From positions 100,277 to 164,276 of the forward strand of contig BDDD01001471.1 of NCBI GenBank assembly GCA_001972305.1: a stretch of DNA of 64,000 nucleotides. Direction: 5' to 3'. Positions 6,624 through 50,440 of the stretch are shown here, one piece after another. The notes beneath the pieces were generated by a model, which ran no database searches, was not told where the DNA came from, and worked only from the letters and a program-made list of their open reading frames with translations. How positions within the stretch are numbered: the first letter of the stretch is position 1; each line of letters opens with the position of its first letter. The stretch comes from Cephalotus follicularis (Eukaryota > Streptophyta > Magnoliopsida > Oxalidales > Cephalotaceae). The translations under genes and the position numbers were made by a program.

Positions 6624-9343
6624 TGTCACACCCCGTTTTTAAGAGAAGACAAACATTAAAGCGGTAAAGGCAATTAACATAAAATACAGCTCATGCAAAA
6701 AACCATAAAACATAAACCTTTCCAAGGTACAACAGTTGCGGAAGCATAACAAAACATAAGCTGTAAACTCATAACGTGCATCCCATACTACACGCTACCC
6801 AAATACAAGACATAAGTTAAAAGCCCACAAAAAACGGAGCGTGAATTAAAGTACGAGATTAAAATCCTTCAGCAACAAAACCATAACAACTGTACATCCG
6901 AAAACCATAACCATCATAGGTTTAATACAAAGCAGGAGAATAAGAAAAATCAAGAACATAACAACTTGATCTTCCTCCATGTCAGTCCAACCGGTCCACT
7001 GCATGAATCTATAAAGTAAGGGGTTAGCCTTTGTCCTCATTCGGCTAAGTCATAAGAACAGTTCGGGATTAAAATTTAAATGCATGTCATGACATGAATG
7101 CATGAATGATGCAGTGTAGAAAAACCAGTTCATATATATATATATGAGAAATATATATTTTAACAGTACAGTAAAATAACAGTGGGTACATATATAAGAA
7201 AATATATGTATGCAGGATCAGTACAGTGGTAACCCGGGCAAGGCTACATCAACAAACACAGGAATGTCCGTGAAGGACCAACAGGCAGTACAGGACGTCC
7301 ACATAGGACTACAACAGGAAGGATGTCCACATAGGACCACAACAGGCAGTATGTGTAGCGTCGCCAACTCCTGGCCCCACGCTACACTCCCACTCCGGTC
7401 CCTACATCAGGCAACCGAGCGAGGCAACAGGACAGTGAGTTACCAAGCCATACTCCTGGACCCTAGGTCAACCCTCCACTAGTCGGTGCTGGCAGTCTAC
7501 GCCATGCAACTAGTGGTTCAAGCACAAACACATAGCAATTCACAGAGCAAACAGTGAATTCAAGAAGTAACAGTACAGTAAACAGTAGTGATCAATTTGA
7601 TACACAACAGGCAGGTTATATCAAAAATGTTTCCAAAAGTGACAAAATTTGAAATATATAAATACAATAAAAAATACCTTTAAACAGTTTCAGTAGTGTG
7701 AATTTGTTTACCAGTTCGTTCGAAAATACGTTATTAATCAATACATATTTCCATACTCAAAATATCACATTCCAAGTTCATATATGCATTTCTAAATATC
7801 AAGCTTTAGAAATCATAAACAATTCGCAAATAGTATACAATCAGGCAGTACACAGTACATATGCAATCCATACAAATGCTCAAATGCATCCTAGCAGGGA
7901 ATCAGGATTGTTTCGCATCGTTTTAAGAAAACAGCAGTCCAACCAGTCGGTTGGAATCCTCACCAGTTGACTGTTCCTGGGTCGAGCAGTATCAGTAGTC
8001 GACTGGTTCCCTCTACCAGTTGACTGTCCATTAGGCAGTCGGCTGTTGTTCTTCAACAGTCGACTATTACAGTACTCTCACACGAGAATATTCCCAGATT
8101 TCCATCTTCTGGGCAGTAGGAAGTATGAACAGTCGACTGCTTTCCATTGGCAGTCGACTGGTATCAATGAGTAGTCGACTGTCTTGCTTCAACAGTCGGC
8201 TGCTCTACAATCCAGTGGCATGAAAATCGATCTAACTACTCCAACGATTCATGGTAAGCAGATAAATCAAGCTTAGGGATAGGAATATAACCATAGGTTG
8301 TCATATCATTCATATAACAACCCATTCAACATGTATATCAACATGCAACCAATTCCATGTTAAGGTTCAACATGCATACACTTGATCACATATAATTTAC
8401 AGTAACAAGCATAACTAAAGGGAAAACAGTAGTGATCACATCCTATACTCAGTAGTTATAACTCATATAACAAGGCATTTCGATCCATGAAACATGCAGT
8501 GACTTTAACTCAAAACACCATTACAACTTCCCCTACATTTGATTCCAAGTTAGGAATCTATAAGTCCACCTCTTTTCGTTCCAATCAGTGACGTTCTGAG
8601 CTCCCCAGAAGCTCCAACTCCAAGCCCAGCAGCTCCAAGGACAGCACCCTCCTTGAACTCCAAGCTTCAACAATGGACAACACTCCTCTTTCCTCTTTTC
8701 TTTGTGGTTTCTCTCTACTGTCTCTGTGATTCTCAACTTAACAGTACCAGAAAGAGAGGGAATGAGTCGAACGTTTTATGCAGAGTCTTTAATCCTCCTC
8801 TTCCTTCACCCCTCACATGGCAGTAAATGCCAAACACACCCACTCACATGCATGCACACACACACATAAAGCCAATTTCTCTGCCCCATGAGGTGTTGCA
8901 TGATTCACAGGTGTCTCTTCCTTCCATCCTCTTGGCTGCATGAAGCACAGATGGCCCACTCTTCCACTGTCAGTTATAACATGTGATTCCTGTCACATGC
9001 AATAAACAGAGCATGATCCAGTAGGCTGCCTTTCCCAGGCAGTCGGCTGTTCGCCTGGCAGTCTGTTGCCAAGTGTCACGAAAGTTGGACAATCGACTAG
9101 TTCATCCCACCAGTCGACTGCCCCCATATGCAGCCATCCAGTCGGCTGGTCCTCCATACCAGTCGACTACCCCTAGCAATTACAAAGCATTCACAATTTT
9201 AAGTATATGATTAATTAAAATCAACATCACCATAACTTGGGAAAACATCATCAAATTCGGAAAAATCCATCACTTTATTAATTCCACAAATAAAGTACAA
9301 GTACATTGTGAAATTACATTACATGAAAATCTCGGGCGTTACA
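6624..9343 (-). mobile_element. EL3 5' LTR (2.72 kb)
   Basis: It starts on the minus strand at 9343 (TGTAACGCCCGAG) and ends at 6624 (GGTGTGACA). On the minus strand it shows a U3 palindrome array (9175-9018), CATAAAA (8780-8774), a donor-like block near 8537 (here AAT/GTAGGGG, last exon base changed), a palindrome array (8215-7940), short tandem units near 7260-7350 and an acceptor-like AG at 7010-7009. Confidence 0.9.
7940..8215. repeat. CAGTCGACTG palindrome array, EL3 putative intron
   Basis: About ten copies of CAGTCGACTG, CAGTCGGCTG or CAGTTGACTG with unrelated spacers occur here. The duplicate array is at 14385-14660. It lies about 320 bases after the donor-like site on the minus strand. 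Confidence 0.8.
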
Positions 9344-9348
9344 TAGAT

Positions 9349-10208
9349 GCTAATATTGCAGAAAGATGGTTGCAAGATCTGGAGAAGATCTTCAAGTTAT
9401 GGATTGTACCGAAAACCAGAAGCTGAAATTTGCTGTCTATCGGTTATGGGGCGAGGCCATCCACTGGTGGGAGATGGTCAAGGCAAAGTGGGAGTCAACC
9501 AGACTCGAGAGTACATGGGAGAGATTCCAGAGAGAATTTCTTGATACATATGTCCCTCGTATCGAGCAAGAACGAAGAGAGACAAAACTTCTAGAACTGA
9601 GACAAGGAGAGATGACCGTGGCTGAATACCAGGCCAGGTTTATGGAGCTTGCCAGACACTCCACCTATCTGGTGGAGGATGAGGAAAAGAAAATTCGGAG
9701 GTTCCTGAGGGGTCTTTGACCGGACCTTTTATCAAGGATTAGAGCTATGGAGTTGGGAACTTTTGTAGAGGTTGCCCAAAAAGCAAGGTTGCTGGAAAGC
9801 ATAGCAAGTGAGGACTGCGCCGAGAGAGCTCGTACACAGTAGAGCAACCAAACTTCCAAGCAATCTAGGTCGGCTTCATCTAAGTGGCAAAACAATGATT
9901 CTTCGACAAAGTCAACAAAGAATGAATCTCAGCAAACTGCTAGTCAGGGCAATCCTAGTCAGGGGAGCAATGCTAGGAAGGGAGTCTGTCCACATTGTGA
10001 CCAAAAGGGCCATCAACCGGAGGATTGCTGGTGAAAAAATGGAGCATGTATGAAGTGTGGAGCACCTGACCATTTGAGAAGGGATTGTCCGATGAAGTAA
10101 GTGACAGTGCCCACTAGACATGCAAGTGATGGTGGTGCTACAGCTGGACCTACACAGTGGAGAGACACTGGCAAGGGCATCATGAGAGGTACTTCTTACT
10201 ATCTATGA
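9349..10208 (+). pseudogene. EL2 gag, C-terminal part with two zinc knuckles
   Basis: Gag resumes after EL3 with IAERWLQDLEKIF, then one frame change near 9390 leads to MDCTENQKLKFAVYRLWGEA and WERFQREFLDTYVPRIEQER. In-frame stops at 9717-9719 and 9840-9842 break it. Two CCHC nucleic-acid-binding knuckles follow: CPHCDQKGHQPEDC (9987-10028) and CMKCGAPDHLRRDC (10047-10088). The frame ends at TGA 10206-10208 without entering a protease, so EL2 is a gag-only element. Confidence 0.87.
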
Positions 10209-10590
10209 TGCATTGTTTTATCATATATTGAAATTGTTCTTGATTTACTGGACGATCAAAGTCGTGATTGAGCGAATGTTATGGTGTTAAGCTAGAACCT
10301 TCGGAGGCTAAACTAGTAAGTACAAGGATAAATGAACGCTGACGTAACAGTCTAATGAATGATCGAACGGTTGTCGAACGATCGAGAGAATGAACGACCA
10401 TCGCTTAGGTCAAACCTCATAGGTGAGACTTCATGAGAAGTCAAGATCGTTGAGAAGGGGTTACTTGGGGCACAAAGCGGACAGGAAAGTTATACCAATA
10501 ACACGAAGAGAAGATTAAGGATTGGTACACTTAATCGTCCGGAGTAGGTTAAGAAAATTCGAGGACGAATTTATTTGAAGGAGGGTGGAT
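10209..10590 (+). other. EL2 internal tail and polypurine tract
   Basis: This stretch is noncoding between gag and the middle LTR. It ends with TTCGAGGACGAATTTATTTG then GAAGGAGGGTGGAT, the usual end of gypsy pol plus a polypurine tract. It contains repeated GAACGATCGA-like bases at about 10365-10395. The duplicate is at 16654-17035. Confidence 0.7.
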
Positions 10591-13484
10591 TGTAACGCCC
10601 GAGATTTTTGCACAATTTGATATTTCAATTTTATTGAAATACTATAATTGAATTCAAGGGAATGGCATAATTTTGACCTAGGTGATGCTTTCCAAAAACC
10701 TAAGGGTTAGATTTTGGAAGAGGGAATGATTGGGATAATAAAGAAATTCTAAATGATGCAATTAGGGGCAAAACGATGCAATTTTGGGCTAAACGCATCG
10801 ATGACTTTGAAAAGACGTCGACGCATATGGGAACAAGGGGGCGCACATAAATGCATAAACATGCACGTCGATGAAGGCGAAGGCATCGACGCCCTTGTAC
10901 AAAAGAGGAAAAGACATCAAAGTGTAAAGAAGACGTCAAAGTCTTTGAAAATAACAACAGTCAAGTTATGAGCTGACACACTAACGTGCAAAGGGAGACC
11001 ATTCAGGGCTTGTTGCAAGCACCTTGGGACACAAAGGGGGACATGTTGGCCATGCATAATAGCCTCCTGACCTGCATGACTGAAGAAGGATGGAGAATGT
11101 AACAAGTGTTATGATGCATGCAACCTGCAAAAGGAAAGGAGAAGGAAAAAAAAATGAGAATGCAGAAATGGAATGGGGAAGAGGGAGAGGACACGGGACG
11201 ATTCATTTGGTGCAGAAAGAAAGAGGGAGAGGGAGCCATCTGCATAAGAACAACCCCATCCCCACCTCTCTCTCTCTCGTTTAAAAAACCTGAGAATAAG
11301 AAAAGAAAGAAACAGTGAGTGTGAAAGAAGAACATCACCATTGTTGAACCAGTGGAGCTTGGGAAACTTGGAGCTAGAGGCTTGCAGCAACGGGGCAACC
11401 TTGGAGCTGCTGTGGAAAATTCTTGGAACACAAAGAGGTGGACGTTAAGGGTTTCTAACTTGAAACCAGAGGTAGGGGAATTATACGTACATATTTGAGT
11501 TCAAAGTTAATGTGTTGCCATGAATGAAATGCATGAATTGCATGTCTGTTGGGAGTTGAACTAAATGTTTGATTGATGATATGAACACCTGTTGGTGTAG
11601 ACTGTATATGCATGTTGATTTCTGGGTGAATACCATGCTTGATTGTATGTGTATATGGGTTGAGTACCCCTGGTTGTGGATAAAACGAAAGAGACAGTGT
11701 TATGGACTCTTGCACGTCGATGCTTTTGTGATAAGCATCGTTGTCTTTAGGCGATGAGATGATAGACGTCGACGTCTTGGTTAAGCGTCGATGTCTATTT
11801 CAAACATTGCAGAGCTGCAACGTTTGCTTATGGACTTGTGGACTTTTGATGGGTTGATGATTTGGTTATACATATGGATAATTTGTGGTGCGCGTTATGC
11901 TATATGTGGTGTTTCTAGGAAGTGTATGCACGAATGGAGGATGGATTCTTCTTTGAAATGGAGTTTGGTTGTGGTGACACCTTTTAGTACCACTTAAGCA
12001 TCGACGTCTATGGAAGGCAACGACGTATTTGGTTGCCATGCATTAGGTGTTGTACATAACGCGAGGACGTGTTAAGGTTCCTACCTTAAAAGTCGATGCG
12101 TTGTGATAAACATCAACGCCTAAGGGTTTTGGTTCGTAGGCATCGACGCCTACAGAAAGACATCGACGCATTCGTGCTGTTTCAAGCTGTGACTTTGGGA
12201 ATGAACCTCGATGCTTCTGGGGCAATGGACATCGACGCGTTTGGGAAAGACATCGACGTCTTTCCTCTTGGGTTGTATGGTTTGACCCACTTAGGATCCG
12301 TTACCTCCGGAACGATTCTAGAAGCGACCCTAGGCATGTTAGAGCATATGGTTGCATTGCATGCTACTGTGAATGGATTTGTTATGATATCGCATGATTT
12401 CTTAAATAATTTAATTTGAGAAATGCGTATATGTTTGTTGTGTGGAAATATATGCTTATATATATAATTTCCAAAAAGAACTGCATAAATGATTTCAATG
12501 ATTGAAATTATGTATACGAAAATAAGTATTTTCGGAAAATTAAATACTGTACAAAAGGACTGGTTATACGTTTTGAACAAATGTAATGTTGTCAAGTATT
12601 TTATACATAATAAATTACTTGGAAATGGACTGTGACGGAAATATATATTTTCCAAAAAGGATTGCGAAATGGTTTGACATAATTAAAATTATGGTATACG
12701 GATATGAATATTTTCGAAAGAATGTAGTATATTTTGAATGTAATGTTTCAAGTATTTTATGATTCACTAAAACTACTTGACAAGGTTTGAAAAAGGACTG
12801 TGAAACTTTGATAACTGCTAAACCCTGATGGGTGAGTAGCCTAAAACTATAATCTTTGTTAAAAGGACTGATGCCCATTTGGGATGTTTTGTTTACAAGT
12901 ATTTCTTACATGTTAATTACTTGTGATGGCTTGTTTGGGGTTACTAAACTCTGTTGGGTAAGTAGCCAGGGATTCCACTACTGAGCTCTGTTGGGAAAGC
13001 AGTTGGAAGTTCCGTATAAGGTAGCCACTGAGCTCTGTTCAGTAAGTAGCTAGGGTTTCCCATGAAATAGTTACTGAGCTCTGTTTGGTAAGTAGCTAGG
13101 GACTCCCATTTGGTTGCTAAGCACTGTTGCGTGAGTAACCGGTTGTTGAGCCTGGGTGTCAGCAACTTTAATCTGGCTTGATGGGTCCTTAGTGACCTGA
13201 TCGTTGTATCTAGCTCCTTCGGGGATAGTTTCGTACTTGTGTTATTGTGACCCTCGGGTGATACCTGCTTGTGGGTATATACATATATTTATATATATCC
13301 TGTGTTATTTATGTACTGCATCATGAATGCATTCATTTCATGTCATTCATTACTTGATCCCAAATGTATTTATACTTAGCCGAGTGAGGACAAAGGCTAA
13401 CCCCCTACTATTTCAGATTGACGGAGACAATCGGACAAGTGTGGTTAAGGCTATCTTGGAGCTGCTATTTGAAGGTTGTTTAAA
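10591..13484 (+). mobile_element. EL2 middle LTR, 3' truncated
   Basis: It begins TGTAACGCCCGAGATTTTTG and matches the 5' LTR up to GAAGGTTGTTTAA, where the tandem-duplication junction cuts it. The last 350 bases or so of the LTR are missing. TATA-like, donor-like (GT 11472) and acceptor-like blocks (about 13413) are kept. Confidence 0.9.
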
Positions 13485-15788
13485 TTCGGCTAAGTCATAA
13501 GACCAGTTCGGGATTAAAATTTAAATGCATGTCATGACATGAATGCATGAATGATGCAGTGTAGAAAAACCAGTTCATATATATATATATGAGAAATATA
13601 TATTTTAACAGTACAGTAAAATAACAGTGGGTACATATATAAGAAAATATATGTATGCAGGATCAGTACAGTGGTAACCCGGGCAAGGCTACATCAACAA
13701 ACACAGGAATGTCCGTGAAGGACCAACAGGCAGTACAGGACGTCCACATAGGACTACAACAGGAAGGATGTCCACATAGGACCACAACAGGCAGTATGTG
13801 TAGCGTCGCCAACTCCTGGCCCCACGCTACACTCCCACTCCGGTCCCTACATCAGGCAACCGAGCGAGGCAACAGGACAGTGAGTTACCAAGCCATACTC
13901 CTGGACCCTAGGTCAACCCTCCACTAGTCGGTGCTGGCAGTCTACGCCATGCAACTAGTGGTTCAAGCACAAACACATAGCAATTCACAGAGCAAACAGT
14001 GAATTCAAGAAGTAACAGTACAGTAAACAGTAGTGATCAATTTGATACACAACAGGCAGGTTATCTCAAAAATGTTTCCAAAAGTGACAAAATTTGAAAT
14101 ATATAAATCCAATAGAAAATACCTTTAAACAGTTTCAGTAGTGTGAATTTGTTTACCAGTTCGTTCGAAAATACGTTATTAATCAATACATATTTCCATA
14201 CTCAAAATATCACATTCCAAGTTCATATATACATTTATAAATATCAAGCTTTAGAAATCATAAACAATTCGCAAAAAGTATACAATCAGGCAGTAAACAG
14301 TACATATGCAATACATACAAATGCTCAAATGCATCCTAGCAGGGAATCAGGATTGTTTCGAATCGTTTTAAGAAAAAAGCAGTCCAACCAGTCGGTTGGA
14401 ATCCTCACCAGTTGACTGTTCCTGGGTCGAGCAGTATCAGTAGTCGACTGGTTCCCTCTACCAGTGGACTGTCCATTAGGCAGTCGGCTGTTGTTCTTCA
14501 ACAGTCGACTATTACAGTACTCTCACACGAGAATATTCCCAGATTTCCATCTTCTGGGCAGTAGGAAGTATGAACAGTCGACTGCTTTCCATTGGCAGTC
14601 GACTGGTATCAATGAGTAGTCGACTGTCTTGCTTTGACAGTCGGCTGCTCTGCAATCCAGTGGCATGAAAATCGATCTAACTACTCCAACGATTCATGGT
14701 AAGCAGATAAATCAAGCTTAGGGATAGGAATATAACCATAGGTTGTCATATCATTCATATAACAACCCATTCAACATGTATATCAACATGCAACCAATTC
14801 CATGTTAAGGTTCAACATGCATACACTTGATCACATATAATTTACAGTAACAAGCATAACTAAAGGGAAAACAGTAGTGATCACATCCTATACTCAGTAG
14901 TTATAACTCATATAACAAGGCATTTCGATCCATGAAACATGCAGTGACTTTAACTCAAAACACCATTACAACTTCCCCTACATTTGATTCCAAGTTAGGA
15001 ATCTATAAGTCCACCTCTTTTCGTTCCAATCAGTGACGTTCTGAGCTCCCCAGAAGCTCCAACTCCAAGCCCAGCAGCTCCAAGGACAGCACCCTCCTTG
15101 AACTCCAAGCTTCAACAATGGACAACACTCCTCTTTCCTCTTTTCTTTGTGGTTTCTCTCTACTGTCTCTGTGATTCTCAACTTAACAGTACCAGAATGA
15201 GAGGGAATGAGTCGAACGTTTTATGCAGAGTCTTTAATCCTCCTCTTCCTTCACCCCTCACATGGCAGTAAATGCCAAACACACCCACTCACATGCATGC
15301 ACACACACACATAAAGCCAATTTCTCTGCCCCATGAGGTGTTGCATGATTCACAGGTGTCTCTTCCTTCCATCCTCTTGGCTGCATGAAGCACAGATGGC
15401 CCACTCTTCCACTGTCAGTTATAACATGTGATTCCTGTCACATGCAATAAACAGAGCATGATCCAGTAGGCTGCCTTTCCCAGGCAGTCGGCTGTTCGCC
15501 TGGCAGTCTGTTGCCAAGTGTCACGAAAGTTGGACAATCGACTAGTTCATCCCACCAGTCGACTGCCCCCATATGCAGCCATCCAGTCGGCTGGTCCTCC
15601 ATACCAGTCGACTACCCCTAGCAATTACAAAGCATTCACAATTTTAAGTATATGATTAATTAAAATCAACATCACCATAACTTGGGAAAACTTCATCAAA
15701 TTCGGAAAAATCCATCACTTTATTAATTCCACAAATAAAGTACAAGTACATTGTGAAATTACATTACATGAAAATCTCGGGCGTTACA
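13485..15788 (-). mobile_element. Second partial copy of EL3 5' LTR
   Basis: This matches 7040-9343 at the 6445-base offset and ends ...CGTTACA followed by TAGAT (15789-15793). It is part of the tandem duplication, not a separate insertion. Confidence 0.9.
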
Positions 15789-15793
15789 TAGAT

Positions 15794-16653
15794 GCTAATA
15801 TTGCAGAAAGATGGTTGCAAGATCTGGAGAAGATCTTCAAGTTATGGATTGTACCGAAAACCAGAAGCTGAAATTTGCTGTCTATCGGTTATGGGGCGAG
15901 GCCATCCACTGGTGGGAGATGGTCAAGGCAAAGTGGGAGTCAACCAGACTCGAGAGTACATGGGAGAGATTCCAGAGAGAATTTCTTGATACATATGTCC
16001 CTCGCATTGAGCAAGAACGAAGAGAGACAAAACTTCTAGAACTGAGACAAGGGGAGATTACCGTGGCTGAATACCAGGCCAGGTTTATGGAGCTTGCCAG
16101 ACACTCCACCTATCTGGTGGAGGATGAGGAAAAGAAAATTCGGAGGTTCCTGAGGGGTCTTTGACCGGACCTTTTGTCAAGGATTAGAGCTATGGAGTTG
16201 GGAACTTTTGTAGAGGTTGCCAAAAAAGCAAGGTTGCTGGAAAGCATAGCAAGTGAGGACTGCGCCGAGAGAGCTCGTACACAGTAGAGCAACCAAACTT
16301 CCAAGCAATCTAGGTCGGCTTCATCTAAGTGGCAAAACAATGATTCTTCGACAAAGTCAACAAAGAATGAATCTCAGCAAACTGCTAGTCAGGGCAATCC
16401 TAGTCAGGGGAGCAATGCTAGGAAGGGAGTCTGTCCACATTGTGACCAAAAGGGCCATCAACCGGAGGATTGCTGGTGAAAAAATGGAGCATGTATGAAG
16501 TGTGGAGCACCTGACCATTTGAGAAGGGATTGTCCGATGAAGTAAGTGACAGTGCCCACTAGACATGCAAGTGATGGTGGTGCTACAGCTGGACCTACAC
16601 AGTGGAGAGACACTGGCAAGGGCATCATGAGAGGTACTTCTTACTATCTATGA
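15794..16653 (+). pseudogene. EL2 gag C-terminal part, second copy
   Basis: This duplicate of 9349-10208 has the same frame change and the same in-frame stops, so both defects predate the duplication. The zinc knuckles are present at about 16432-16533. Only a few base differences separate the copies, for example GAGATTACC versus GAGATGACC near 16056. Confidence 0.87.
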
Positions 16654-17035
16654 TGCATTGTTTTATCATATATTGAAATTGTTCTTGATTTACTGGACGA
16701 TCAAAGTCGTGATTGAGCGAATGTTATGGTGTTAAGCTAGAACCTTCGGAGGCTAAACTAGTAAGTACAAGGATAAATGAACGCTGACGTAACAGTCTAA
16801 TGAATGATCGAACGGTTGTCGAACGATCGAGAGAATGAACGACCATCGCTTAGGTCAAACCTCATAGGTGAGACTTCATGAGAAGTCAAGATCGTTGAGA
16901 AGGGGTTACTTGGGGCACAAAGCGGACAGGAAAGTTATACCAATAACACGAAGAGAAGATTAAGGATTGGTACACTTAATCGTCCGGAGTAGGTTAAGAA
17001 AATTCGAGGACGAATTTATTTGAAGGAGGGTGGAT

Positions 17036-20000
17036 TGTAACGCCCGAGATTTTTGCACAATTTGATATTTCAATTTTATTGAAATACTATAATTGAATTC
17101 ATGGGAATGGCATAATTTTGACCTAGGTGATGCTTTCGAAAAACCTAAGGGTTAGATTTTGGAAGAGGGAATGATTGGGATAATAAAGAAATTCTAAATG
17201 ATGCAATTAGGGGCAAAACGATGCAATTTTGGGCTAAACGCATCGATGACTTTGAAAAGACGTCGACGCATATGGGAACAAGGGGGCGCACATAAATGCA
17301 TAAACATGCACGTCGATGAAGGCGAAGGCATCGACGCCCTTGTACAAAAGAGGAAAAGACATCAAAGTGTAAAGAAGACGTCAAAGTCTTTGAAAATAAC
17401 AACAGTCAAGTTATGAGCTGACACACTAACGTGCAAAGGGAGACCATTCAGGGCTTGTTGCAAGCACCTTGGGACACAAAGGGGGACATGTTGGCCATGC
17501 ATAATAGCCTCCTGACCTGCATGACTGAAGAAGGATGGAGAATGTAACAAGTGTTATGATGCATGCAACCTGCAAAAGGAAAGGAGAAGGAAAAAAAAAT
17601 GAGAATGCAGAAATGGAATGGGGAAGAGGGAGAGGACACGGGACGGTTCATTTGGTGCAGAAAGAAAGAGGGAGAGGGAGCCATCTGCATAAGAACAACC
17701 CCATCCCCACCTCTCTCTCTCTCGTTTAAAATACCTGAGAATAAGAAAAGAAAGAAACAGTGAGTGTGAAAGAAGAACATCACCATTGTTGAACCAGTGG
17801 AGCTTGGGAAACTTGGAGCTAGAGGCTTGCAGCAACGGGGCAACCTTGGAGCTGCTGTGGAAAATTCTTGGAACACAAAGAGGTGGACGTTAAGGGTTTC
17901 TAGCTTGAAACCAGAGGTAGGGGAATTATACGTACATATTTGAGTTCAAAGTTAATGTGTTGCCATGAATGAAATGCATGAATTGCATGTTAGTTGGGAG
18001 TTGAACTAAATGTTTGATTGATGATATGAACACCTGTTGGTGTAGACTGTATATGCATGTTGATTTCTGGGTGAATACCATGCTTGATTGTATGTGTATA
18101 TGGGTTGAGTACCCCTGGTTGTGGATAAAACGAAAGAGACAGTGTTATGGACTCTTGCACGTCGATGCTTTTGTGATAAGCATCGTTGTCTTTAGGCGAT
18201 GAGATGATAGACGTCGACGTCTTGGTTAAGCGTCGATGTCTATTTCAAACATTGCAGAGCTGCAACGTTTGCTTATGGACTTGTGGACTTTTGATGGGTT
18301 GATGATTTGGTTATACATATGGATAATTTGTGGTGCGCGTTATGCTGTATGTGGTGTTTCTAGGAAGTGTATGCACGAATGGAGGATGGATTCTTCTTTG
18401 AAATGGAGTTTGGTTGTGGTGACACCTTTTAGTACCACTTAAGCATCGACGTCTATGGAAGGCAACGACGTATTTGGTTGCCATGCATTAGGTGTTGTAC
18501 ATAACGCGAGGACGTGTTAAGGTTCCTACCTTAAACGTCGATGCGTTGTGATAAACATCAACGCCTAAGGGTTTTGGTTCGTAGGCATCGACGCCTACAG
18601 AAAGACATCGACGCATTCGTGCTGTTTCAAGCTGTGACTTTGGGAATGAACCTCGATGCTTCTGGGGCAATGGACATCGAAGCGTTTGGGAAAGACATCG
18701 ACGTCTTTCCTCTTGGGTTGTATGGTTTGACCCACTTAGGATCCGTTACCTCCGGAACGATTCTAGAAGCGACCCTAGGCATGTTTGAGCATATGGTTGC
18801 ATTGCATGCTACTGTGAATGGATTTGTTATGATATCGCATGATTTCTTAAATAATTTAATTTGAGAAATGCGTATATGTTTGTTGTGTGGAAATATATGC
18901 TTATATATATAATTTCCAAAAAGAACTGCATAAATGATTTCAATGATTGAAATTTTGTATACGAAAATAAGTATTTTCGGAAAATTAAATACTGTACAAA
19001 AGGACTGGTTATACGTTTTGAACAAATGTAATGTTGTCAAGTATTTTATACATAATAAATTACTTGGAAATGGACTGTGACGGAAATATATATTTTCCAA
19101 AAAGGATTGCGAAATGGTTTGACATAATTAAAATTATGGTATACGGATATGAATATTTTCGAAAGAATGGAGTACATTTTTAATGAATTGTTTCAAGTAT
19201 TTTATGATTCACTAAAACTACTTGACAAGGTTTGAAAAAGGACTGTGAAACTTTGATAACTGCTAAACCCTGTTGGGTGAGTAGCCTAAAACTATAATCT
19301 TTGTTAAAAGGACTGATGCCCATTTGGGATGTTTGGTTTACAAGTATTTCTTACATGTTAATTACTTGTGATGGCTTGTTTGGGGTTACTAAACTCTGTT
19401 GGGTAAGTAGCCAGGGATTCCACTACTGAGCTCTGTTGGGAAAGCAGTTGGAAGTTCCGTATAAGGTAGCCACTGAGCTCTGTTCAGTAAGTAGCTAGGG
19501 TTTCCCATGAAATAGTTACTGAGCCTTGTTTGGCAAGTAGCTAGGGACTCCCATTTGGTTGCTAAGCACTGTTGCGTGAGTAACCGGTTGTTGAGCCTGG
19601 GTGTCAGCAACTTTAATCTGGCTTGATGGGTCCTTAGTGACCTGATCGTTGTATCTAGCTCCTTCGGGGATAGTTTCGTACTTGTGTTATTGTGACCCTC
19701 GGGTGATACCTGCTTGTGGGTATATACATATATTTATATATATCCTGTGTTATTTATGTACTGCATCATGAATGCATTCATTTCATGTCATTCATTACTT
19801 GATCCCAAATGTATTTATACTTAGCCGAGTGAGGACAAAGGCTAACCCCCTACTATTTCAGATTGACGGAGACAATCGGACAAGTGTGGTTAAGGCTATC
19901 TTGGAGCTGCTATTTGAAGGTTGTTTAAACTGGTTATGTATTGCAATGATCCTACTATATCAAGCTCTGTTTCGTGAGCTTTTAACAATGATGTTGTTTT

Positions 20001-43444: not shown

Positions 43445-45929
43445 TCCCTAAGATAAAAACAAGTGAGGGTATAATGCTCTCACCTCTTCCTCACGCTCCC
43501 ATGTCGCTTCCTTAAGCCCGTGATACTTTCATACCACTTTAACCAAAGCAATGCTCTTATTCCTTAACTATTTGATCTGACGATCTAGGATCTGAACAGG
43601 TGTCTCCTCAAAACTTATTTCCTTCCTCAACTAAAATATTTCAAACTATAGCACGTGAGAAGGATCTGGATGATACTTCCTCAGCATCGATACGTGCAAG
43701 ACATCTTTCACTTCTGACAGGCTGGGCAGCGAGTCAAGTGTGTAGGCAACTGTAACTACTCTCTCAACGATCTCAAAAGGTCCTAAATACTACGAAGCTA
43801 ACTTTCATTTCTTGCCAAACCTCATAATCCCTTTGGTTGGTAAAACCTTAAGGAATACATGGTCTCCCACTGAGAACTCTAAGACTCAACTTCGATGATC
43901 TGCATAACTCTTTTGTCGACTCTAAGCCGTTGGAAGAGTTTCTTCGATAAACATGGCCCTTTCCAATGTCTCATGCACATGCTTTGCCCTAAAAGAGTCT
44001 TCTCACCAACCTCAAACCAACAAACTGGGGTTCTACACTTCTGACCATAAAGAGCCTCAAACGGTGCCATACCGATGCTATCATGGTAACTATTGTTGTA
44101 TGAGAAGTCCACTAAACGCAAACGCTTATCCCAACTGCCACCCCAATCCATCACACACGCCCGGAGCATATCCTCAAAAGTCTAGATCCTTAGCTCAGAC
44201 TGACCATCTGTCTGGGGATGAAACGATGTATTGAAGCTTAATTGAGTACCAAAAGTTGCTTGCAGTTTCTTCCAAAACCGCGAAGCAAACTGTGGGTCCC
44301 TGTCATACCCAATACTGACTAGTACTCCGTGAAGCCTAGCAGTCACCTCAACATATAAGGATGCCAACCATTCAAGAGAATAAGTCATCTTGATTTCTAG
44401 AAAAAGTGCAGATTTCATAAACCGATCAACGATGACCCATATGGCATCACGGTTAGTCCTCGTCCTTGGCAACCCTATCACAAAATCGATTGAGATGTGC
44501 TCCCATTTTCACTGTGCTATTGACAACGGTTTAAGCAATCCAACTGACGTCTGATGTTCTCCCATGACTTGCTGGCATGTGGAGCAGGAAGAAACATACT
44601 CCACTATCTCCCTCTTCATGTCATACCACCAATAGCTTAGCATCAAGTCTCGGCATATCTTGGTACTCCCAAGATGTACTGAGAAATTGGAGCGATGAGC
44701 CTATGACAAAAGCTTATCCTTTAGCTCCTTACAGTTAGGAAGATAAACCGTGCCCTAAAACCCAATAAATCCCTCACCATGAAGCGAGATTTCAGGTTTT
44801 AACCTTCCTTGACCATCTAATGCAACCTTGAGCAAGATTCCATCAATACCTTGAGCCTCTCCGATTCTAGCTTTGCTGGATCCACTAATGAATTGGCACT
44901 GGAGATAACGTGACCAAGAAAAGCCACCTCTGACAACCAAAACTTCCATTTTTTTAACTTGGCATACAACAAGTGGTCTCTCAAAACTTGTAATGCCAAA
45001 TGAAAATGTTTCTCATGCTCCTCTATACACTTGGAATACACCAATATATCATCGAAGAAGGCCACGATGAACTGGTGAAGACGTGGACTAAACACTCTGT
45101 TCATAAGGCTCATAAATGCAGTAGAGGCTTTGGTCACCTCAAACGGCATTAAAACGAACCCATAGTGGCCATACTGTGCCCTGAAGGTTGTCTTTGTAAC
45201 ATCTTCAACTTTAACCCTAAGCTGGTGATATCCCAATCTCAAATCCAACTTGGAAAACACTGAAGAACCTCTCAACTGATCAAACAATTCATTGATATGT
45301 AGGAGTGGGTGCTTGTTTTTAACAGTAACCCTGTTAAACTACTGATAATCGATACACATATGGAGGTACCCATCCCTTTCTTGAGAACAGAACTAGTACT
45401 CCCCAAGGAAAACACTCGGTCTGATAGAATCTCTATCGAGCAATTCCAGTAACTACAGTTTCAACTCTTTCAACTTTGGGGCGCCATATTATAAGGTGTT
45501 ATCGATATATGTGCTGTCCCTCGTAGGAGGTCCACAACAAAATCTGTATTCCTCTCTGGAGGTAAGGATGTCAACTCCTTCGGAAACACATCCGGATACT
45601 CATAAACAACTGAGACTGCCTCCAACCTCGGCACCCATATTCTATCATTCTCCACATGTGCCAGGTAACCACTACAAGCTTGTCTCATAATCTTGTCAGC
45701 AGGAATGGCCGATATCATCCAAACTGGCAGGTGATCTAGGGTCAACGTCCTGGCATACTGAAGATCATGACCTTCCCATAACAATCCACTCAAGCACAGT
45801 GTGCTGCTAACCAATCCATTCTTACGATTACATCCAACTCATCCATCAACAACACTATAAGATTTGTTAACAAAACACGGTCAACGATCTCCATGTTAGA
45901 CATAAAGTCCTGCAAGCTAGTGATGACCA
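43445..45929 (-). pseudogene. EL7 gypsy protease-RT-integrase, RNase H deleted
   Basis: The minus strand, right to left, shows a protease end (LLMDELDVIVRMDWL), an RT start (VVYEYPDVFPKELTSLPPER), RT core ([25 protein letters not shown]), then directly the integrase HHCC region (STKICRDL, SSCSTCQQV). Catalytic-core pieces DFVIGLPRTRTNRDAIW, YDRDPQFASRFWKKLQ and HPQTDGQSELRI follow, and finally a chromodomain-like tail (PVQILDRQ, ATWEREEEVRALYPHLF). RNase H is missing near 44830-44870. Several stops and frame changes make it nonfunctional. The left end abuts the purine tract and LTR; the right end is cut by EL8. Confidence 0.9.
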
Positions 45930-47606
45930 TGTATTTACTCTATCTTGTACATAAATGCAATAAAGATGTTTATATTTTATCATTGGTTATGAGTTCATTG
46001 TTTGAATACATGTTTATTTAATAAATGAATGTCCTGGAATAAAGTTAGAGAACCAAGTTCATGATGAGATCATGATGTGAGAATTGGAATCTCAGTATAC
46101 TTTATTTCGAATTCCTGGTCAAAGGATTGACACTCAGGGCATGATCGATCCGGATACACTAGCACGTACTGTCAGATCGATAAGAAGAGGGTGACTGATC
46201 GCACACCACTCGCATGGTTGATGCTATGACAACTACGTGGGTTCTTGTTAATTTATTAATGAGTTCACTGAAGGTGACTGTTGATAGAATTTCTATATGG
46301 AGTTTTACTTACATGTCTGACAGAATTCTAGTTTTACAGTAGTGCATGTGGTCCTTGGACATGACTCGTCACTGGATGTCTTGTGTGTAAGGTGCTGTGT
46401 TTTGAAGGTGCTTAAATACATATTCAATGAAGTGTATACAGGCAGTAGTTGGACATAGTACGCTTATGTATCGAGTCATGCGAACTGGCAACAATGAATC
46501 CATTGCTTCTAGTGAAAGAAGATTATGCTCAGGATGATTTTCGTTAGCAATTCAGTGCCTGACTAGGCTAGCCGCGATATCAAGAGTGTGATATCATTGG
46601 TTGAATATTAGAGGGGCACCTCTAATGTTATTCAGGATGACAAAAGATAGTCACGAGACTAAAGATTAAATTATTGGGGGGTTTGACATAATCCGTACCC
46701 TAGATTTAATCAGAGCATTGTCAATGGAAGGAATATACGTGCATGTACCTGTAAATAGTAGTTCGTAGATAATTCATATTACATGGGGGTTGTTATGATT
46801 GCTAGATGTCGATGTCGACTAGTAGGATGCCTAAGATTAAATTGATAATTAATCTTGGAAGAAAAGAATAAAAAGAGTTTTAATTTGAAATATCTGATAT
46901 AATGTTTTTTTATGTGATAATAAATATTTAATCGGATAATCGTGAGTGTCACGATTTAATCCTACGGCCAGCGTAATATAGGGTCACACACAATATTGGC
47001 TGACATTTTTGACACTATCATGAGAGAATAATAATTACAATATTATTTTCTAATTATGTTTAATGAGATTAAATATTCTTAATGCGATTAAGGAAAGAAA
47101 GTAATATAAAAGGAAAGGAAAGCTATTTATGTTAAGTGGGATACTTGACTAAATTAGAAGATTGAGAACTAAACGTTCAACACGTTTTTACTAGCATAAA
47201 AATAGCTGAACATGTTTTCTTTCATCAATCACTCTACTGGCATTCCTATTTCTCTCAACTGTTTTCTTCTAGTTCTTGGAGAACAAAGAAAAACACAGTA
47301 AAACGCAACAAGAGTTGTGAGACTTGAGAAGTCACGTGTTGGAGATAGAGGCTTGGTGTGGATACCTTGGAGACCTACAATTCTTGGAGGCTAGAACCCA
47401 CAAATAATCAAAGAAAGACCTACTCCATTTATGTGAGTAGATTCTGCCTACTCTTATTGTTTTATATGTATTGTTTCTAACTGTATATGCATTCACAAAT
47501 GATCGTAGGAATGAACTTTATGGTTTGATTATCATGAGATGATAACACAATACTTCTAGGTTGCAAGCATCTAGATTATTTGTTTGATCACCATAAGGTT
47601 CCACCA
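45929..47606 (+). mobile_element. EL8 copia 5' LTR (boundaries approximate)
   Basis: The start is near TGTATTTACTC (45930) or TGATGACCATG (45921), where EL7 protease stops. The end lies just before the primer site at 47610. The 3' LTR is not in the window, so neither end can be confirmed by comparison. Confidence 0.65.
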
Positions 47607-47609
47607 AAA

Positions 47610-47620
47610 TGGTATCAGAG
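47610..47620 (+). other. EL8 primer binding site
   Basis: TGGTATCAGAG in + orientation matches initiator tRNA-Met. It fixes the direction of EL8. Confidence 0.85.
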
Positions 47621-47749
47621 AGGATTCGATGCATATACACAGTTAGAATTTTATTTATGATGATATGCTTGAATTATTTGGGTTGATTTGTGAGAGAAAC
47701 ATGTGATGGAATCGTGCTTGTTCAGGTTAAGGGTTGATAGTTTAAAGTA

Positions 47750-48120
47750 AACCGTCGACGCGCAAGCGCTGATGGTTTTCAAAAACTGTCGACGCTTAAG
47801 CGCTAAGCACGGACAGTTTGCACAAACCGTCAACGCTTATTCGTTAACCGTTGAAGTTTTGAGAAAATAATCAACGCTTAAGCTTGAACCATCGACAGTT
47901 AAGCATTAAGCGCTGACGTTTTGAGAAAACAGTCGACGCTTAAGCTTGCCCCTCGACGCTTAAGACTGAGCGCTAAAGTTTTGAGAAAACTGTCGACTCT
48001 CATGTCTAAAGCGGGGATGAATATACAAAGCGTCGATGGAAGCATCGCAGCTTAGCGGGTAACCACTGACGCTAATTATAAAGCGTCGCCGCTTAAAACG
48101 GTGAAACTCGTTAGCGCTTG
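47750..48120. repeat. GTCGACGCTTAAGC palindrome array, EL8 leader
   Basis: About fifteen copies of AAC(T/C)GTCGACGCTTAAGC-like and AAGCGCTGACGTTTT-like units occur, with TTTTGAGAAAA repeated between several of them. This places the motif in a copia leader, outside any gypsy LTR. Confidence 0.8.
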
Positions 48121-48899
48121 TGAAGCGCATTCCCAGCTCTGCAAACTCGTTGAAAAAGAGTTTTAAATTACCATAATTACCCAACTTAATTATAGAAGTA
48201 TAACTATCAAAATTAATATTAGATAATTCAATGAGATTGCATTATTATTATTATTGGATAATTCAATGAGAATTAATTATATTTATGCATGATGGTTGGG
48301 TTATGGACTTCACCTAGTTTTGTCTTATTTTACTCAAGCGATGAATGTATATTTTATATTCATACTTTATGGGTTGAAATTTTTGAGACTTGCATGTTTC
48401 TCTTCTCTCTCTTGATTCGTATCTTTAATTCTTCTTAACCTCCTTGTGACTCCCCTTGATTTAATCAAGGTTTCTATAGTTTATAGTTGGTATATGTAAT
48501 TGAAGAGCGAGATTCGCAGCAGAAGGAAGTTTGAGAAGAGCAAAGATATTACAAGACCCATGTGTGTATGGGAGGAAATGTATGATTGTAATAACATACC
48601 TAGGAATGAGACCAGCAGCTTGTTTGAGAGTCAAATAAGTTGCAGTAGTAAAGTCCATAACCAGCCATTAGTTTTTTAGAATGTATGTGATGCATATCTA
48701 AATTATGAGGTTCCAATGGCCTCCCCACATTTTTCCATATACATGTAATTTTATTAATAACGGGTCGGCTAATAACAATAAGAGTTATATTATTATTCCT
48801 CATTTATACCATGATATCAAGTTAAAGCGAAATGGGCACAAGATAGTGTTCAGTCATTACCTTTTGCCATTGCAACTAATATAGATGCTCTTGGAAATT

Positions 48900-49219
48900 G
48901 TGAGTGTTTTGGCCCCCATCATGGCTTACCTTTTCTGGGAACATATGTATAAGTTGAACATGAGATTGTAAATACAGATGAATTATGGATGTGAATGTTA
49001 AGGCCCCCGTCAAGATTCACATTCAGTGATTCATTGTGTGATCGATGGTAGGTGAAACTTGACTAGAATACATATGGCGTTTTGGCCCCCGTCAAGGTCA
49101 TATGTAGACTATAGGCAAAAGCAATGATCGGGAATCATGCTATTGCATGGTGGGCAAGAGTTTTGCCTAACTGCAAGATTAAGTGTAATGTTTTGGCCCC
49201 CGTCAAGGTTATACTGAAT
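48900..49219 (+). ncRNA. Array of four covarying hairpins in EL8 leader
   Basis: Four units share an 18-nt loop GTTTTGGCCCCCGTCAAG or a close variant, at 48906-48923, 48997-49014, 49079-49096 and 49190-49207. The flanks pair each time although their sequences differ: GTGAGT with GCTTAC; TGGATGTGAAT with ATTCACATTCA; TACATATGGC with GTCATATGTA; AAGTGTAAT with GTTATACT (G-U pairs allowed). Between units 3 and 4 a further nested hairpin occurs (AGGCAAAA 49113-49120 with TTTTGCCT 49161-49168). All are on the EL8 sense strand. Pairing was checked base by base; the function is unknown (packaging, dimerisation, translation control or protein binding are options). Confidence 0.75.
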
Positions 49220-49449
49220 ATGTTGCCGGACACCGATCCCCACTCGGAAATGAGATCCATGAGACTTGTATTGTTGTTTCTCGTCTCCCATATTTATAAG
49301 GGTTTTGGGATTCACATAAAAAAGTGGGAGCCTAAGAGGAAAATACACCTAAAAGATTAAAAGACCAAATCCTTAAGGTTATAAACATTGAAATTGAATT
49401 TATCTGATTTAATTATTGTTGTCTTCTTTTTATATCTACAGACATCGCA

Positions 49450-50440
49450 ATGACAAACTTACTTGCTGTTATTCTTGAGAAGAATCAGCTCACAGGTACT
49501 AACTATGTGGACCGGGTACGGAATGTTAGAATAGTTCTGAATTCTGAGGACATAGATTATGTCCTAGAGGCCCCTATGCCAGCACTGCCTGCTGCAGATT
49601 CCTCAGTTGAGGACCATGCCATTTATAACAAATTGGCAGCAGATGACAAGAAAGTAAGATGCTATTTGATGGCTTCGATGAGAAATACCCTACAAGTCCA
49701 ACATGAGACGCTGCGAGACTCTAGGGCTATTCTGCTGCACCTCCATGAGTTATACAGAGTGAACAGTAGGAATGCTCGGTTCCAGCTCACTGCTGAGCTG
49801 TATGGCACTAAAATGGCTGAAGGATATTTTATCAATGATCATGTGCTGAAGATGATCAATGCGATTGAACGTCTTGAAGCTCTAGGCATCGTTCAGGATG
49901 CTGAATTGAGCATTGATCTTATCCTTCATTGGCACCCTCCTTCATTCTCTGGTTTCATCACCAACTTTAACATGAATAGGATATCAGCTAGTTTTGCTGA
50001 CCTCAGAAACATGCTGAGGGAAGTAGAAGCAAACATGTATAGGGACAAGGTGCCAGTGATGATGGTAGGGCAGTCCCGAAGACCCAAGAGGAAGGGAAAG
50101 CTAGCTTCTACAAAGGGGAAGGCTAAGAGTGGGATGTAGCCACCACGACAGGCATCCTTTAACCCAAGGACAGCCATACCACCTAGTCAGGGAAAGCCGC
50201 AAGTTGTTACTGTGCCAGATACTGATACAAGAGTTGCACATGCTGAGGAGAGTACCTCAGAACCTCCTGCTAAGGGACCCTGCTTCCACTGTGGGTAGTC
50301 GAGACATTGGAAAAGGAATTATGTGACATTGGAAAAGGAATTATGTGACATTCTTATATAGAGGTGAATATGTACATACCTGATTAATCTTCCTCGATTT
50401 TAGATAGTGGATGTAGCACTCACATATGTTCTGAATAAAC
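49450..50440 (+). pseudogene. EL8 copia gag and protease start
   Basis: A 229-codon open frame starts MTNLLAVILEKNQLTGTNYV, which is typical of Ty1/copia capsid proteins (UBN2-like). It includes VLKMINAIERLEALGI, a region shared by many plant copia gags, and ends in a basic tail. A stop at 50137-50139 breaks it. The same frame then gives a CCHC-like CFHCG-stop-SRHWKRN. A 22-base direct duplication at about 50308-50351 shifts the frame, after which ILDSGCSTHICSE, the aspartic protease active site region (DSG), appears at about 50394-50432. EL9 interrupts immediately after. Most of pol lies beyond the window or is lost. Confidence 0.88.

Follow-up and report, generated by a model that had tools for sequence, protein, structure and literature searches.

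The core encapsidation signal of MoMuLV is formed by neighbouring leader hairpins (SL-B, SL-C and SL-D) that serve joint Gag recognition and dimerisation, according to the sections of PMC7599994 used here. The 5' TIPIRT domain of Ty1 provides a structured 5' RNA for packaging and for the start of reverse transcription (sections of PMC5454406 used here). In barley, BARE2 is a gag-less parasite of gag-bearing copies and has conserved dimerisation and packaging signals; for LTR retrotransposons beyond BARE, little is known about the packaged RNA (sections of PMC3735527 used here).

The locus described here, an array of four hairpins in the leader of a Ty1/copia-type LTR retrotransposon of Cephalotus follicularis, was compared with these systems. 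The MoMuLV signal occupies a position comparable to that of the Cephalotus array, between the primer binding site (PBS) and the gag start, but NC binds a UCUG linker in MoMuLV (PMC7599994, in the sections used), whereas the Cephalotus array has four units, the common tip being CCCC on a conserved helix. Ty1 is also of the copia type and its domain is likewise located between the PBS and the gag start; this domain combines a pseudoknot with two hairpins whose 7-nt tips are complementary (PMC5454406, in the sections used), whereas no conserved complement of at least 7 nt was found in the Cephalotus element. BARE1 and BARE2 are plant copia elements like the Cephalotus element, and a gag-less subfamily exists in both cases; the sections of PMC3735527 used here describe no hairpin array for BARE, and its signals are set beside the Cephalotus array by description. 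Structured leader signals are already known; what is new, within the searches made, is their arrangement in four copies in a copia element of a plant.

Those searches agreed with the statement of an earlier note on this DNA that no described family with this loop is known. There were 0 Rfam 15 matches at the gathering threshold in the window (the whole 64-kb stretch of DNA that was analysed), and the interval 48275-49450 gave only two antisense matches, both of them weak (E 2.4 and E 4) and outside the hairpins. The motif, its RNA form and its complement were not found in a text search of 5.39 million papers, and nothing resembling the array was noticed in what the other literature searches listed. 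The exact 17-nt motif was not found in viral contigs, where 47 stretches fitted a pattern for gag relatives and 0 were confirmed. Any likeness of the motif to the sequence complementary to a conserved part of 16S rRNA is taken to be chance.

The host element belongs to a large, high-copy family. A total of 29 gag relatives were found; the 15 with at least 62% identity were all from Cephalotus follicularis, the next had at most 44%. Cephalotus relatives bear the name zf-CCHC protein. In the window, the 5' LTR was placed on the + strand at 45894..47605; its start with TGTTAGA was checked, its 3' end is approximate, and LTR homology to three other copies (L031, L048 and L049) begins at 45888-45894. 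Next to it lies the PBS TGGTATCAGAGA (47610..47621, + strand), presumably of the initiator tRNA-Met type; in 16 of the 20 long loci (9 kb), a site with at most one mismatch to it precedes the hairpins. The gag ORF (49450..50139, + strand) is of the copia type and encodes 229 aa (Pfam PF14223, E 6.6e-12); a CCHC-like stretch follows it past an in-frame stop. A post-gag remnant occupies 50140..50432 (+ strand). The window copy is broken, as homology to the same three copies stops at 50432, and no 3' LTR of this copy was found within the 64-kb window. From 50433 onward copia homology stops near a G run, and another repeat seems to have been inserted or joined there. The copia gene order was found in L031, in which an rve integrase precedes RVT_2 in an open 918-aa ORF, and distant direct repeats fitting LTRs were present in five of the 20 long loci (L031, L032, L041, L048 and L049). 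The leader hairpins are thus located between the PBS and gag, the position of a packaging signal (Psi), and about 230 nt separate the end of the hairpin domain from the start of gag.

The window also contains two adjacent 6.4-kb stretches, 7039-13484 and 13484-19929, that are 99.3% alike; the pair (7039-19929) may have arisen by recent tandem duplication or in the assembly. A CG-rich motif, AAGCGCTGACG, occurs with at most one mismatch 14 times in the window on both strands (0.26 expected), at 47764-48119, 27405, 34592, 37236, 37477, 38726, 51179, 51220, 54288, 59528 and 59622. Its leader copies belong to a repeat array whose units are imperfect and in part self-complementary, and a related sequence, GTCGACGCTT, is present in 37 of 70 loci. 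AAGCGCTGACG may be common to unrelated elements.

The four hairpin units had been reported at 48906, 48997, 49079 and 49190, and a search with GTTTTGGCCCCCGTCAAG allowing up to three mismatches returned exactly these four matches in the window (shuffled sequences: mean 0.05, largest 1). The units lie within a structured leader domain at 48860..49250 (+ strand), supported by RNAalifold on a 29-row alignment (A2), with spacings of about 90, 82 and 110. H1 (48900..48929, + strand) has the arms GTGAGT/GCTTAC, which form 6 bp, and its motif (48906-48923) carries two changed bases. H2 (48986..49025, + strand) has an 11-bp basal stem and a motif, again with two changed bases, at 48997-49014. The exact motif is found in H3 (49069..49106, + strand; 10-bp basal stem; motif 49079-49096) and in H4 (49182..49215, + strand; motif 49190-49207), the basal stem of which has 8 bp in the window and 12 pairs in other copies. 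Contiguous flank pairing of 6, 11, 10 and 8 bp (G-U allowed) matched the earlier count. In a shuffled-flank check, the total of 35 bp was never reached in 200,000 random draws from the same 391-nt domain (highest 23), so that chance pairing is excluded. The two motif variants named earlier are indeed present in units 1 and 2, but are mostly private to the window copy: at the changed sites of unit 1 the common base was found in 23/28 and 27/28 sampled units, and at both changed sites of unit 2 in 29/30.

Matches to GGCCCCCGTCAAGGT (at most one mismatch) in the assembly (1.58 Gb, 9746 contigs) numbered 2093 + 2171 compared with 674 + 698 for the reversed control; the motif is therefore widely repeated. 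Among the first 30 loci, some of which overlap so that the same element is counted twice, cores with at most two mismatches numbered four in 22, three in 7 and one in 1. In the 20 long loci, motifs with at most three mismatches numbered at least four in 17, three in 2 and one in 1. Every one of these loci was reached by way of the motif, which selects for an intact H3 or H4. The basal stems of 119 units (L001-L050 plus the window) comprised 1113 cells, of which 879 were Watson-Crick, 184 G-U, 13 A-C and 37 other; 27 further rows were omitted from this count as non-fitting, and at least three of these are real units with a shift. When right flanks were inspected by eye, no stranger with the exact motif was noticed among the matches listed (100 of 637), nor among sets of 60 and 26 genome matches; exact motifs that continue with GT or GC lie outside this screen, and a shorter core would escape it.

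The earlier note described the motif as an 18-nt loop. An open 18-nt loop was not favoured in H3, H4 and the exact-motif copies, in which the motif is predicted to fold on itself into a short conserved hairpin. In the predicted fold of H3 and H4, the basal stem is followed by a GU bulge of 2 nt and then by UUUGGC-CCCC-GUCAAG, which forms 6 bp closed by a CCCC tetraloop. The tip of H2, with its two changed bases, is predicted to form a partial apical helix, and that of H1, which also has two, a different fold. In exact-motif copies (12, 8, 23 and 21 copies of H1, H2, H3 and H4), the inner four apical pairs had mean probabilities of 0.83-0.98 and the outermost 0.41-0.81. Hairpin pairs of the MoMuLV type are said to have GACG tetraloops; no such pair was found here, the common Cephalotus tip being CCCC.

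The placement of the array in a sense-strand copia leader agreed with the folding results, since a signal beyond controls was obtained on the sense strand only. As a single sequence, the 391-nt domain gave z -4.79 in the sense and +0.42 in the antisense orientation. Alignment A2 comprised 29 rows, namely the window and 28 distinct sequences drawn from 50 loci, those omitted being duplicate or incomplete. Its sense RNAalifold energy was -64.2 kcal/mol compared with a column-shuffled mean of -38.2 (z -5.63, 0/60 shuffles), and its antisense energy was -32.8 kcal/mol (z -1.39, 5/60 shuffles). No sense-only structure was found upstream (about 48275-48880) in four pieces with 17 rows. Hairpin tiles were 0.86-0.90 identical to the window and most gag tiles lower (0.77-0.88); other near-leader tiles were as conserved as the hairpin domain (0.82-0.93).

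In A2, 95.7% of stem cells were paired, compared with 27-43% when the pairing was slid. The stems had been called compensatory, and this is true when the four units are compared with one another, as their arms are unlike and yet all pair; it does not hold across copies of one unit, where double-changed pairs numbered 3 against 3.1 in shuffled data, with no excess, and the majority of variant pairs differ on one side only. Changes were placed on a tree (FastTree on A2, Fitch states), and only those starting from Watson-Crick pairs were counted, because G-U transitions always keep pairing and give an excess of kept pairs in slid pairs too. On internal branches, basal Watson-Crick pairs changed 16 times to G-U and 0 times to A-C (p 3e-5), and on terminal branches 34 and 15 times, respectively; the pooled slid control gave 48:35 on internal branches. 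With C>T and G>A changes removed (A>G versus T>C alone), the internal ratio was 10:0. The apical 17 nt (68 columns) accumulated 4 internal and 81 terminal changes, compared with 67 and 285 in 243 other columns (Fisher p 8.5e-4). When split, this contrast gave p 0.042 for C>T/G>A and p 0.014 for other changes, and for the H1 and H2 tips alone, which are outside what the search pattern selected for, it was 3/58, the remaining 317 columns having 92/360 (p 0.0024). Terminal changes in the apical helix led 6 times to G-U and 17 times to A-C, so that pairs were broken more often than kept. These results support a sense domain of about 390 nt whose apical sequence and basal pairing were kept in the lineages behind the 29 leaders, and suggest constraint while the lineages were active with ordinary decay after insertion. 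By these mutation patterns, the shape of the hairpins may have mattered during the activity of the family.

Larger samples weaken the selection signal. With 48 rows the internal ratio of G-U to A-C was 11:2 (slid 53:50) and the apical contrast had p 0.019; with 63 rows the ratio was 16:4, and the two change classes gave apical p values of 0.002 and 0.038. A tree-free count on the 48 rows gave 14 kept, 4 A-C and 1 other among stem variants in at least three copies, and 14, 0 and 1 among those in at least four; the tree-free apical contrast of shared and single variants had p 0.27, 0.012 and 0.044 at 3, 4 and 5 copies. A sample close to one subfamily (L031) and not chosen by the motif comprised 34 rows (36 fetched, L067 and L074 dropped). 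Here, stem variants in at least three copies were kept in 4 cases and A-C in 3 (slid 51:20), those in at least four copies in 2 and 3 cases, and no depletion of apical variants was seen (p 0.35 and 1.0). Methylation decay can make C>T and G>A changes recur, and since most shared apical variants in this sample are C>T or G>A, 10 of the 12 commonest kinds of argument from shared ancestry fail in it. The 34-row result provides no support for structural constraint. The selection on RNA structure claimed earlier is thus favoured in the 29 rows by fold energy, by the G-U/A-C asymmetry and by apical conservation, with a weaker signal in larger samples and none in one.

A gag-deleted subfamily was also found. 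L031 has both LTRs (92.9% alike), the four hairpins and the open pol ORF, and lacks most of gag; it was the sole row without gag homology among 21 (20 long loci plus the window). Its gag-deletion junction (L031:4406-4540) was located at no fewer than 20 places including L031, with at least 569/591 bases at 87-100%, in a search that scored 40 of 2804 candidates. All four hairpins were recognised in 17 of 21 gag-less copies (L031 plus 20 slices, one a partial match), and two of these 17 have one weak unit (H1 in L053, H2 in L054); the slices may cut other units. Young gag-less copies may have the array simply because they inherited it. A2 contains one known gag-less row (L001, the element of L031), too few for a selection test there. 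In lacking gag and keeping the array, the subfamily resembles BARE2 of barley (PMC3735527, in the sections used).

The explanation preferred here, to which we give slightly less than an even chance, is that the array is a multivalent Gag-binding packaging or dimerisation signal of the element's genomic RNA. The four hairpins would act in cis, and the apical motif (GU bulge plus UUUGGC-CCCC-GUCAAG) would be bound by the CCHC nucleocapsid part of the element's own Gag, with which the zf-CCHC names of the Cephalotus relatives fit. One RNA would thus offer four equal Gag sites, through which it would be taken up selectively into virus-like particles and might also dimerise. Similar tips sit on stems that differ, which suggests that recognition lies in the tip and that the stem holds it. 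In no more than 2 of the 21 rows (20 long loci plus the window) did a 7-mer complementary to the motif lie at a common place; a Ty1-type kissing loop with a second complementary site of at least 7 nt was not found, nor was any other conserved site in the element with which the motif would pair over that length, although contact through the 4-nt GGCC self-complement may occur. As no such complement was found, the partner is more likely to be a protein or a host RNA, and Gag is favoured as the protein because of the position of the array, its repetition and its survival in gag-less copies. The same fixed motif, shown four times on differing stems with a protein or host RNA as the probable ligand, would also suit a host protein acting in nuclear export, stability or translation; this reading is unlikely, as the exact motif was seen only with family-like flanks among the matches listed (100 of 637; 60; 26).

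Strong structure about 230 nt before the gag start could instead control gag translation by internal entry, shunting or repression, which we consider improbable, given that the gag-deleted subfamily keeps four hairpins in 17/21 copies, although this may be inheritance. That the four units are mere duplicates with inherited pairing and no function would accord with the missing excess of double compensation and with the 34-row sample without signal; chance pairing is excluded, however, 0/60 column shuffles match the sense signal, and internal and terminal branches of the tree differ, so that this appears quite improbable. A function at the DNA level, for instance through leader palindromes that bind a protein, would suit a motif that occurs four times between inverted flanks, but is hardly to be expected, since sense-strand stem changes favour G-U over A-C (16:0 internally; 184 versus 13 of 1113 cells), which is not anticipated for a palindrome.

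If Gag does bind the array, gag-deleted derivatives would have spread by keeping it and using Gag from other copies. More tentatively, the array may be a modular, four-copy Gag-recognition device, a fixed RNA handle on differing stems that serves as a multivalent packaging tag and is exploited by gag-less parasites whose spread would depend on keeping it. The finding provides a compact, repeated RNA motif with evidence of evolutionary constraint in a high-copy plant family, and the gag-deleted subfamily stands beside the array as a natural experiment. A hairpin of about 40 nt makes RNA recognition by a plant copia Gag testable.
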